Origin: Pelagophyceae sp. CCMP2097
Lineage: Eukaryota; Sar; Pelagophyceae
Assembly: GCA_026770575.1 (NCBI GenBank)
Contig: MU657211.1
Coordinates: 260,275-324,274, forward strand
Length of the DNA stretch: 64,000 bases
Direction: 5' to 3'
Part shown: positions 3,195-28,549 of the stretch, piece after piece
Position numbering within the stretch: the stretch's first letter is position 1
Layout of the letters: every line of letters begins with the position of its first letter
The notes under the pieces: model-generated
Told to the model about the DNA's origin: nothing
The model's input: only the letters and a program-made list of their open reading frames with translations
Databases searched by the model: none
Made by a program: the position numbers and the translations under genes

Positions 3195-3866
3195 TCATGA
3201 AGCGCTTGCCGTCGGGCGAGAACGCGCAGCAGAAGCGACGCTGGTGTGCCCCTCAAGCGTCAGCAGCAGCGCGCCCGTCGCGGCGTCCCAGAGCCGCGTC
3301 GTCTGGTCGTCGCTCGCCGTCACGATTCGCTGGCCGTCGGGCGAGAACGCGCAGCATTCGACGTAGCTGGTGTGCCCCTCGAGCGTTGTTTGCAGCGTGC
3401 CCGTCTCGGCGTCCCAGATGCGCGCCGTCTTGTCCTCGCTCGCCGTCACGACGCGCTTGCCGTCGGGCGAGAACGCGCAGCACGTGACGATGCGCGTATG
3501 CCCCTCGAGCGTCAGCAGCAGCGCGCCCGTCTCGGTGTCCCAGAGCCGCGCCGTCCGATCGGCGCCTGCCGTCACGACGCGCTTGCCGTCGGGCGAGAAG
3601 GCGCAGCTCCGGATCTCGTCGGTGTGCCCCTTGAAGATTGCTTGACCCTTACAATTGTATTTATACAATTGTAGGAATTCCTAAGTAGTAAGAATCAGGT
3701 CCTTCCAGACGAGTCTGCGCACGGCCGGCGCCACGGCGCGCGCATTTCGAGCGACGCGCTTCGTCAGGAAGCTGAGCTCCAGCACGTCGAGGACCGCCGG
3801 CGCGGCGCCGACGTCGGCGCGTCGCGGCTCGGCTCGCGCGGCGGCCGCGTTGTGGGAAACGTCCAT
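3195..3866 (-). CDS. WD40-repeat protein, possibly degenerate
   Basis: Two exons, 3866-3711 and 3647-3195 (202 aa). The first exon, starting at an ATG at 3866, encodes a Leu/Ala-rich segment; the second encodes three complete, nearly identical WD40 repeats (each GHT..., CAFSPDGKRVVTA, then ARLWDTETG). A fourth repeat begins GHTS but the frame is then lost: the DNA still spells CAFSPDGKRF one base out of frame near 3215-3235, and the reading frame stops at 3195. Three and a half blades are too few for a propeller, so this is either a truncated array, a pseudogene, or one base has been lost in the assembly. The 63-bp intron contains two nested palindromes (3652-3681) that recur near 57000. Confidence 0.5.
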
Positions 3867-7887: not shown

Positions 7888-9085
7888 GTGCGCCATGTTA
7901 ATTATTTTACATGGATAATTGGCTATTCTTCAGCACATGGAGCCAAACAGACCCCCCTCTTCAAAACCCAGGACCCTTGGGAGGGGGCGCATGTCGATAT
8001 TTGCAAAAGGCTCTCTATGTTAAGGCGCAATCTTGATAAAATGGGTTGCCATCCTCTTGGACCCCTAACATACATTTCGAAACAAGTCGCCCAAACCTTG
8101 GTTTTATCGCACGCATTGTATGATTCTGAAATTTGGCAAAACGGTTTTGAATGCGAACCAGTACAACAAGAAATGGATAGAATCTATAAGAGGCTCTTGG
8201 GCGTGCCAATTAAAACTAATAAAACTGCATTTCACTACGAACTTGGACTTATTGATCAAAGGTTCCGTGCCCTAGTGGCTGCCCTCAAGTTTCGTAACCA
8301 TATTATAAGGCTCCCTGATCACCGTCTCGTTGAACGCATGTACGTTGCACTGCGTTCGGAAGTCAGTATCAATTCTGGCGATCCCAAGTATATCAAGAAC
8401 AGTGTCACTCAAATCCTCGAACCCTTAACGATCGACCTAGACTGGTGTGAACACATCTCCGGTACCGCAACTGCAAAAGCTAAGGCACACGACATTTTAT
8501 GCTATCTACAGATGAACAAACTCTTAACTCGGTCAGCAACTTCTGTTACAATCCAAACACTCACGAGGTGGTCAACATCTTACCGTACGGCCCTATACCT
8601 TCTTCGTAACCCACGCGCTTCCTGGGATCTTCGTGAGGGTCGAATTTTGAAAACTAAGCTTCGCCTCAGTTGCTTCGAGGCACTGGGCAAAGGGCATAAT
8701 GTCAAAGATTCTAGCGATTCTCGTGGTCGCATTACTCGAACTAAGTCCATTCCGTACACCCTGTGCTGTCGCCAGCGGTACACGGAATCTATATATCATA
8801 TTTTGGGAGATTGTGCTACTTACGCTATACCCCGTGAGGAATGTTTTAGCAGAATAAGTGAGAAAATTCCTCTTTTTGATACTCTGTCAATCCATGCTAA
8901 GGTTGACTTCATCATGCATGAGAATACTCCCCATTTCGTCGATACTTTCATTTATCGTTTCTTATTTAAAACCTATCAAATTCGTGCTAAGTTGGTTGAT
9001 CTGACTAGGCCAGGAGAAGGTCCTCCGGGACTGGACATCCTGTGATTTTTATTACATTACATTACACATTATTATTAGCTTAAAT
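7888..9085 (+). mobile_element. 5'-truncated LINE, 3' half with RT C-terminus
   Basis: An open frame of 385 codons (7888-9045) with low GC and codon use unlike its neighbours. It matches the region C-terminal to the reverse-transcriptase catalytic core of LINE ORF2: ALYDSEIWQNG, IYKRLLGVPIKTNKTAFHYE, ELGLIDQRFRALVAALKFRN, and a terminal zinc-knuckle-like CCRQRYTESIYHILGDCATY. The YADD core is absent, so the copy is 5'-truncated and inactive. After the stop there is a tail of short repeats (ATTAC units, 9052-9075) typical of the 3' end of non-LTR elements. The last coding bases (9008-9046) recur as a 35-bp perfect match at 27446-27480, where they form an intron. Confidence 0.85.
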
Positions 9086-27035: not shown

Positions 27036-28549
27036 TTAGCCGGCGAGGACCCAGTCCTTTATGACGAGGGAGATCTTGTTCCCCACCTTGTTCGCCTTTG
27101 CGACGAGGAGGTTTTGGAGCCATGCCTTTTCGGGCTGCGTCTGCATCGAGTCGACGAAGTTCTGACGCATCGTGACCGCGCGCTCCTTGGCCTCGCGGTC
27201 GACCTTGCGCCGGAGCTTCTTCACTTCGATAGACTCGGCCGTCGGCTTGGCCAATCCGGCCGGCGCGGGCAACAATGCGAGCTGCGCGGCCGCGGCGGCC
27301 TGGCCCTCGGTCACGTCCGAGATGAGCTTTTCCCAGACCGCGTCGAGCGCTTCTTGTCTTTCCGGCGCGAGCGTGCCAAAGGGGACGACGAGGAACGAGG
27401 CGCAGACGGCGAGGTGGTCCGAGGGCCACTCGGCGCTCGGCAAACCTAGGCCAGGAGAAGGTCCTCCGGGACTGGACATCGTGTGAATCTATGACATGAC
27501 ATGACATTACCTTTTTCGACGACGTCGACTTGGAAATCTTCCAGCGTCTGCCACACTTCGACGCATTTCAAAGACGCATCGGTGTAGAGGACGTGGTCGA
27601 GTGCGCAGCAGACGCAGGGCGGTGCGAATACACCCGACTCGTCGAGCTCGTACGCCGACCGCGTCGCGCCCGTGCCGACGCGGGTCAAAGGGCAGACCGC
27701 GTGGTGGTCGAAAGCCGAATGGACCAAGGCGTCCCACTCGTCGAATTCGCTCGCCGTCGGCTCGGCGGTTCGGAGCGAAAAGGCCGCCTGCTTTGAACGC
27801 TGCTCCGCCGTCCCGACGTCGCCGGTCAAAGCTGCGTACACGCCGCTCCCGGGCAAACATTCCGTGTTGAGGTCGCCGGCGATGATCAGGCGCGTCTCGA
27901 CGCCCATATACTGCGCCGCGCAGTCGTGGCAGCGCGCGAGCGTGGAAACGCGCTTGGCCTCGCTGTTCGCATCCAAGTGGACGCACGCCACGGCCAAGCT
28001 TGCCCCCCCGGCAGTCTCGAGGCCGACGACGAGGCGCGTCGTCGTCGGCTCCGATTCCCACTTGATCTCGGCGGCGGCCGGGCGCACGAGGATGACGTTG
28101 CCCACCGCCTTTGCACTTGCCAGGACGCGGCCGTTGCGGTCCGCCAAGCGCTGCAGCTCGCGCTGCGCCGGCAGGCAAGACGAGTAGGGCAGTTCCCGGA
28201 GCCACGCCGGGAGGACGAAGCGCCCTTCGACGTACTCGAACTCGACCTCTTGCAGGCAGACGACGTCGGCATCTGCTCGTATGACGTGGTCGCGGAGCTT
28301 CGTCTGCCGATTCGCCCAGTCCAAGTCCTCGGCCTTGCACCACTCAAAGGCCGCAAAGGGCTGGATTGCGCCCGTGCGCGAGTCGACGGTGCGGACGTAG
28401 AGCGGGGCCAAGACGTTGTACGACATGACGGACAGCGCCGACGAGTCCGACTTTGGGCTCAGTGCGGGCACCTTGCGCACCGCCGTCATCGCGGACATCG
28501 AACGCTTCGCGGTGAGCAGCACGGCGGCCTGCCAGGACCCGCCGCGCAT
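27036..28549 (-). CDS. CCR4-like endonuclease/exonuclease/phosphatase protein
   Basis: Member of the EEP hydrolase superfamily that includes CCR4, Nocturnin and Angel deadenylases; probable role, removal of mRNA poly(A) tails or related phosphodiester hydrolysis. Two exons, 28549-27511 and 27445-27036 (482 aa). Active-site motifs: VMSYNVLAPLY, CLQEVEFEYVEG (metal-binding Glu), GDLNTE, and CALDHVLYT. The last motif, LPSAEWPSDHLAV (catalytic Asp-His), is reached only after removing the 65-bp intron 27510-27446; reading through it gives a premature stop just before the motif. That intron is entirely a LINE fragment (see mobile element at 27446). The C-terminal 120 residues beyond the domain are helical and lysine-rich and unfamiliar. 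Confidence 0.88.
27446..27510 (+). mobile_element. LINE 3'-end fragment acting as an intron
   Basis: On the plus strand the 65 bp begin with 35 bases identical to the end of the LINE frame at 9008-9042 (CTAGGCCAGGAGAAGGTCCT, then CCGGGACTGGACATC), followed by TGTGA and a tail of ATGAC units. On the minus strand the same 65 bp run GTAATG...CCTAG and form the only intron of the EEP gene. The acceptor AG comes from LINE coding sequence and the donor GT from its tail. Confidence 0.9.

Follow-up and report, generated by a model that had tools for sequence, protein, structure and literature searches.

The window analysed here, a 64,000-nt stretch of DNA from the Arctic alga Pelagophyceae sp. CCMP2097, carries a two-exon gene of the EEP family (Exo_endo_phos) on its minus strand and a truncated LINE copy on its plus strand. 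The relevant features are as follows, with positions counted from the first letter of the window.

7888..9045, plus strand: 5′-truncated LINE copy, with a C-terminal open frame ending in ...LTRPGEGPPGLDIL (from the ORF list)
9005..9039, plus strand: 3′ coding end of the LINE, 35 bases identical to the EEP intron (sequence comparison)
9040..9066, plus strand: last codon, stop and ATTAC-unit tail of the LINE (sequence)
27036..27445, minus strand: EEP exon 2, with the SDH motif and the stop; after splicing, the frame runs on to the stop at 27036
27444..27447, plus strand: ACCT next to the acceptor (AGGT in gene sense), presumably the left copy of a 4-bp target-site duplication
27446..27510, minus strand: spliceosomal intron of 65 nt, GTAATG...GGCCTAG, phase 1; missing from the peptide P0001, with a stop if retained
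27448..27508, plus strand: intron body derived from the LINE and antisense to the EEP gene; 61 bp long on the assumption that ACCT was duplicated
27509..27512, plus strand: ACCT next to the donor (AGGT in gene sense), presumably the right copy of the same duplication
27511..28549, minus strand: EEP exon 1, with the frame open to the donor; 99% identical in the alignment with P0001

Joined on the minus strand, the two exons (28549-27511 and 27445-27036) gave a 482-aa protein, and retention of the intron led to a stop after 367 residues, formed by the acceptor TAG; the first-pass annotation had likewise read splicing as restoring the frame with the SDH motif and read-through as ending in a stop. 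The intron, GTAATGTCATGTCATGTCATAGATTCACACGATGTCCAGTCCCGGAGGACCTTCTCCTGGCCTAG, sits between AAAAAG and GTTTGCC. Its segment at 27446-27480 matched 9005-9039, the 3′ coding end of the LINE in the window, at 35 of 35 bases. This identity had been pointed out in the first-pass annotation, but the LINE coordinates given there (9008-9042) were three bases off; the LINE frame ends two codons past the match with CTG TGA (9040-9045). The remaining bases of the intron, ATGACATGACATGACATTAC, correspond in diverged form to the LINE tail, ATTACATTACATTAC, as had been suspected from the likeness of its ATGAC units to the ATTAC tail. The assembly searched here (66 Mb, 638 contigs) may be partial relative to the published one, which comprises 85.8 Mb in 1716 scaffolds according to the accessible text of PMC9756366. 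A search of this assembly for the EEP core end together with its tail pattern, at ≤3 mismatches, returned one match, the EEP intron itself, and the subfamily sought was absent; the EEP tail with its ATGAC units occurred in no other copy, and thus the exact parent copy is absent from this assembly.

A protein search with the EEP protein retrieved 10 homologues, the best of which, P0001, aligned with 94% of the query at 99% identity and matched Exo_endo_phos in Pfam (PF03372, E 5.1e-11). P0001 is a peptide of transcriptome MMETSP0975, which we take to be from strain CCMP2097 itself. In the accessible parts of the sources, MMETSP0975 is entered as 'Pelagomonadales sp.' (PMC9983209), and MMETSP includes the alga CCMP2097 (PMC9133084). 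Across the EEP junction, P0001 reads ...QVDVVEKGLPSAEWPSDHLAV... letter for letter, and it continues as exon 2 reads, stopping slightly earlier. Splicing of the EEP intron out of transcripts is supported by this peptide. The GLP...PSDH stretch was also present in six of the nine other homologues (P0002, P0003, P0004, P0005, P0008, and P0009, the last with PTDH), while P0006, P0007, and P0010 end or diverge ahead of it. The sole difference between P0001 and the genome, RNAALA instead of RNGRVLA at approximately 28130-28160 of the window, lies far from the intron and reflects an allele, strain, or assembly difference.

The 32-base 3′ core of the LINE had 84 exact copies in the 66-Mb genome, and a reversed-pattern control had 0; the identity between the intron and the LINE is therefore not due to chance. 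Pfam gave 0 families for six pieces of the window that covered the LINE end and the sequence leading up to it; in the 666-aa open frame of a longer copy of the family (L058), it recognised RVT_1 at E 2.8e-16 as well as a PHD finger. The source of the EEP intron is an RT-encoding non-LTR element, read here in its 3′ half. We mapped 74 of the 84 exact-core copies, chosen by the 3′ core, and read 75 including the LINE in the window. The 5′ end points of the 74 copies lay between 0 and approximately 1970 bases upstream of the core, the longest being limited by the available DNA, and truncation clustered near the core: 14 of the 74 had ≤7 LINE bases before it, including one (L018) that abuts a run of N and whose end is uncertain. 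A tail was recognised in 55 of the 56 copies scored for it (the exception was L010). The family has a fixed 3′ end with a tail and variable 5′ truncation.

The presence of ACCT at both ends of the EEP insertion is a point absent from the first-pass annotation. Such duplications were scanned for in 57 of the 74 copies, all taken down by hand, from which L010 (no recognisable tail) and L058 (5′ end missing) were then left out. Direct repeats of ≥4 bp at both junctions were present in 27 of the 55 scored copies, compared with 11% on average and 22% at maximum in 200 mispaired shuffles. These repeats are presumed target-site duplications made by the LINE family, and they are short for a LINE. Most of them (21 of 27) start with AC or CA, a proportion that is partly built in, as the scan permits the tail's own AC. 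The program called an ACCT repeat in three of the 55 copies (EEP, L003, and L013), all of which are introns of recognisable genes; re-reading added L004, which lies in no recognisable gene.

According to the first-pass annotation, the LINE tail and coding end, reversed, supply the donor GTAATG and the acceptor CCTAG. This holds for the context of the splice sites, but for the dinucleotides at the splice sites a duplicated 4-bp AGGT target is a better explanation than LINE sequence alone: the two nucleotides at each end of the EEP intron can be target, with the LINE tail and coding end completing the context. The origin of these bases is ambiguous because the tail too ends in AC and the LINE too has CT at this place, and since AC and CT at the ends fit both sources, LINE-supplied splice sites are compatible with a duplication. 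The overlap of the 4-bp ACCT repeat with bases that the LINE could itself supply counts against a duplication origin, whereas the direct repeats at other LINE copies favour it.

Ten places in the genome matched GACTGGACATC followed by ATTACCT, and all ten were read. Seven of them have ACCT at the 5′ junction also, and five of these seven are introns of recognisable genes, with the frame restored upon joining.

EEP-family gene, 27446..27510, minus strand: intron of 65 nt, phase 1
Methionyl-tRNA synthetase (MetRS), C5, antisense to the LINE: intron of 61 nt, phase 0
Oxidosqualene cyclase (OSC), C37, antisense to the LINE (L003): intron of 89 nt, phase 0
Class-3 lipase, C3, antisense to the LINE (L013): intron of 89 nt, phase 0
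LRR protein, C39, antisense to the LINE: intron of 74 nt, phase 2

At least five recognisable genes, EEP among them, thus have a LINE-end intron; the origin proposed for the EEP intron in the first-pass annotation stands and extends beyond this single case. The genome-wide search for the 35-bp core suggested there yielded 136 places at ≤3 mismatches. The five clean introns are all antisense and distributed over phases 0, 1, and 2. All five align with the reversed LINE end from donor to acceptor. Their host genes are mutually unrelated, so these are not introns of paralogues, and the five are introner-like in that they share sequence to near both splice boundaries in unrelated genes. The final AG lies in CTTAG|GT in OSC and LRR and in ATCAG|GT in the lipase, where the stub extends deeper into the LINE and the acceptor bases are other LINE or junction bases. 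A search for further ACCT cases with the upstream core returned six places, all within the 10 above. Sense-orientation LINE copies with AGGT after the tail gave 0 matches in the genome; as AC already comes from the LINE tail, this control is weak.

Joined at AG|GT on the strand opposite the LINE, the flanks of L003 encode oxidosqualene cyclase (CIGPVNK^VYNMLVAYDG) and those of L013 a class-3 lipase (GFPKAE^VLQYLTNKKS). NCBI gene-model proteins of CCMP2097 span both junctions (P0011 and P0131, respectively), and on the basis of these models the OSC and lipase introns are predicted to be spliced; a 55-aa piece of OSC alone matched 0 Pfam families, and the full protein P0011 was matched. The MetRS protein scored 156.5 bits against tRNA-synt_1g (PF09334) when spliced vs. 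103.4 bits when unspliced, and the LRR gene joined without the LINE end matched several LRR models in Pfam; protein homology thus suggests splicing of these two introns. When left unspliced, the EEP, OSC, lipase, and LRR genes have a stop inside the intron, and MetRS has a frameshift. P0001, the RT-encoding family, and these four further cases support the earlier claim that an antisense, 5′-truncated LINE end became a functional intron with the protein left intact. It is extremely improbable that the 65 bp are a recent unspliced insertion that breaks the EEP gene, the protein match having come from another allele. Disruptive insertions do seem to occur, judging from a sense copy (L048, C33) that by eye apparently lies in a coding exon away from AGGT, but P0001 matches across the EEP junction, gene models span two further LINE-end introns (OSC and lipase), and the diverged EEP tail suggests that the insertion is not brand new.

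Two copies with ACCT at both ends, on C36 (L004/L052, C36:187290-191290, 204 bp) and C122 (L083, C122:43200-44400, 159 bp), lie in no recognised gene. Three joined frames of the former and a 60-aa left piece of the latter matched 0 Pfam families; the joined frame of the C122 copy is open for 156 and 142 codons, and its right part is repetitive. These copies are possibly introns of unrecognised genes, or ACCT is possibly just a favoured site; given these copies, ACCT is not a mark of introns alone. The copies on C52 (L082, near a MYND-like exon by eye) and C161 (L084), which have no ACCT at the 5′ junction, and on C309 (L085), which has only ACC there, were not counted as clean introns. A screen for coding signal beside other copies used a model that was trained on the five genes themselves and looked at one flank, so it is not independent of them. 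Two copies had a coding look by eye, L043 (WD40-like) and L051 (kelch-like), but their frames stop before the element.

A different arrangement was observed in L087 (C2:189000-190050, LINE end at approximately 534), whose host scores 51.2 bits for a PH domain when an inferred 111-nt intron is spliced out. A very short antisense LINE end forms the 3′ part of this intron and unrelated sequence its 5′ part; it looks like a LINE in an older intron, with the LINE perhaps lending the acceptor. Other introns do contain LINE ends, then, and the EEP intron might similarly have come first, with a LINE end landing inside later and replacing its content. We consider this very unlikely: in the five clean introns, AGGT borders each end and LINE similarity stops at most a few bases short of either splice site, and L087 shows how different the picture is when a LINE lies inside an older intron.

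The five introns might also belong to a separate introner family that merely descends from a LINE end and copies from intron to intron (e.g., by reverse splicing). The EEP and MetRS introns have a common truncation point, ACCTAGGCC, with only two exact places in the genome, and both carry the GTGTGA variant and ATGAC units; the OSC and LRR introns have another end point in common, CTTAG. This explanation is nevertheless unlikely, as the five introns show three different 5′ end points and differing core variants (CCTCCGG in EEP and CCCTCGG in MetRS), each of which fits a separately truncated LINE, and LINE copies beyond the five have the same structure and short direct repeats. The shared end points may stem from the CT of ACCT pairing with CT in the LINE.

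Very probably, then, antisense 5′-truncated LINE 3′ ends at AGGT in coding exons became introns, including that of the EEP gene, a reading based on the sequence identity, ACCT at both ends, five restored frames, one transcriptome peptide, and two gene-model proteins. Target-primed reverse transcription is established LINE biology and would be the insertion step, through which the non-LTR retrotransposon would insert 3′-end copies, often very short, and leave short target-site duplications. If a stub of this sort came to lie antisense at an AGGT within a coding exon, duplication of that AGGT would give AG|GT at both ends, the reversed tail would read GT-AATG and serve as the donor, and the reversed LINE coding end would place the pyrimidine-rich CTTCTCCTGGCCT before AG as the acceptor. 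For EEP and MetRS, the resulting order in gene sense would be exon-AG|GT-AATG (tail reversed)...CTTCTCCTGGCCT (LINE coding end reversed)-AG|GT-exon. With AG|GT at both ends and the donor and acceptor context provided by the reversed LINE, the spliceosome would remove the insert and restore the exon exactly. This is the probable order of events, and selection would presumably retain spliceable insertions in genes.

LINE copies have CTGTGA after GACATC, which in gene sense reads TCACAG, a possible mid-intron acceptor. A search of the LINE ends at ≤1 mismatch counted 143 places, and among the 100 matches listed, four have G (TCACAC in gene sense) and 96 have C. The four G copies are EEP (27481), MetRS (L080), L087, and L088, all antisense in or beside genes; L088 lies just past a WD40-like frame. 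The core of EEP and L087 differs from that of MetRS, so the C-to-G change may be recurrent. It is possible that older LINE-derived introns lose the cryptic acceptor (CAG to CAC in gene sense) as a trace of selection, but further AGs persist in the G-variant introns, and the OSC, lipase, and LRR introns keep CAG. The LINE may be predisposed to intron-making, in that truncation leaves many copies with the length of an intron and the 3′ end, when reversed, would carry both donor and acceptor context; moreover, because the tail terminates in AC and AC or CA opens 21 of the 27 repeats, ACCT (AGGT on the other strand) would be a favoured site, genic or not. We only tentatively regard the family as so predisposed and as a continuing source of introns, a 'retro-introner' class with later loss of the cryptic acceptor, and hold this to be somewhat less probable than not.

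Introners of Aureococcus were reportedly described by Huff, Zilberman, and Roy in 2016 as DNA transposons with terminal inverted repeats and transposase-type insertion, the target duplication creating a splice site at insertion. They would differ in this from the five LINE introns, in which no terminal inverted repeats were apparent by eye and GTAATG and GGCCTAG are not mutual inverted repeats. Gozashti et al. are said to have reported in 2025 on introners from functionally diverse transposons, with an abstract that names retrotransposons among the introner sources; the idea of retro-derived introners would accordingly be already in print. In the accessible text of Gozashti et al. 2022 (PMC9860276), most introners are taken to propagate by DNA transposition and fungal introners are read as RNA-propagated, families with at least four introns were kept, and an Aureococcus introner is among the examples; 'non-LTR' occurs 0 times and 'retrotranspos' once in that text. 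As far as they are described there, these introners and the CCMP2097 introns have in common similar introns in unrelated genes, similarity extending to the splice sites, target-site duplications that aid splice sites, and aquatic protist hosts. Unlike them, the CCMP2097 introns have an RT-encoding LINE in the same genome as their parent and are antisense, 5′-truncated 3′ ends. Aureococcus introner elements are ~210 bp long in the accessible text of PMC9481584, compared with 61-89 nt for the LINE introns.

The available portion of PMC2394776 describes one case of a SINE-derived coding intron, in rice catalase A (CatA), and human Alu 'intronization', comprising four introns that are alternative and located in 3′ UTRs. 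The rice SINE and the CCMP2097 LINE are alike in that insertion of a non-LTR-type retroelement led to a new coding intron; five coding introns from one LINE family in CCMP2097 compare with the one rice case and with Alu in UTRs. In the AGGT duplication model of intron gain given in the same portion, two AGGT copies become the intron boundaries; that model duplicates exon sequence, whereas in CCMP2097 the duplicated bases surround an inserted element and presumably represent its target site. In the accessible parts of the open literature, we found no paper on introns from LINE 3′ ends in a pelagophyte. Introners and the SINE-derived rice intron are known, and a set of coding introns that trace back to truncated LINE ends adds a new variant to them. 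They bear on the long-standing question of where new introns come from, as one genome contains the parent family together with its truncated copies, the short duplications, and the introns that resulted. This provides a concrete and testable retrotransposon route to coding introns, for which the rule of antisense insertion at AGGT predicts the surviving genic insertions.

Several further observations concern the other LINE copies. The sense LINE end of L048 (C33:74700-78700), 367 bp in length, interrupts a zinc-finger-like exon (NF-X1-like by eye) and is flanked by a C-rich repeat (ACCC), not AGGT; two 100-aa pieces of the host matched 0 Pfam families, and the host is apparently a broken gene. 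Short palindromes, TAGGAATTCCTA and TACAATTGTA, recur in or beside LINE tails (L011, L021, L035, L040, L049, and others) and elsewhere, including approximately 3650-3690 of the window, as if small units had been inserted or had remained behind as footprints. L016 (C4:472212 and 472284) and L062 (C50:353223 and 353301) each have two LINE ends in tandem, spaced 72-78 bp, and in L002 (C96) one LINE end lies within the tail of another, as if the tail had served as a target or template switching had occurred. In L025 (C7:425993), a LINE end truncated at CTAGG adjoins CCCTAACCC-type repeats that resemble telomeric sequence.
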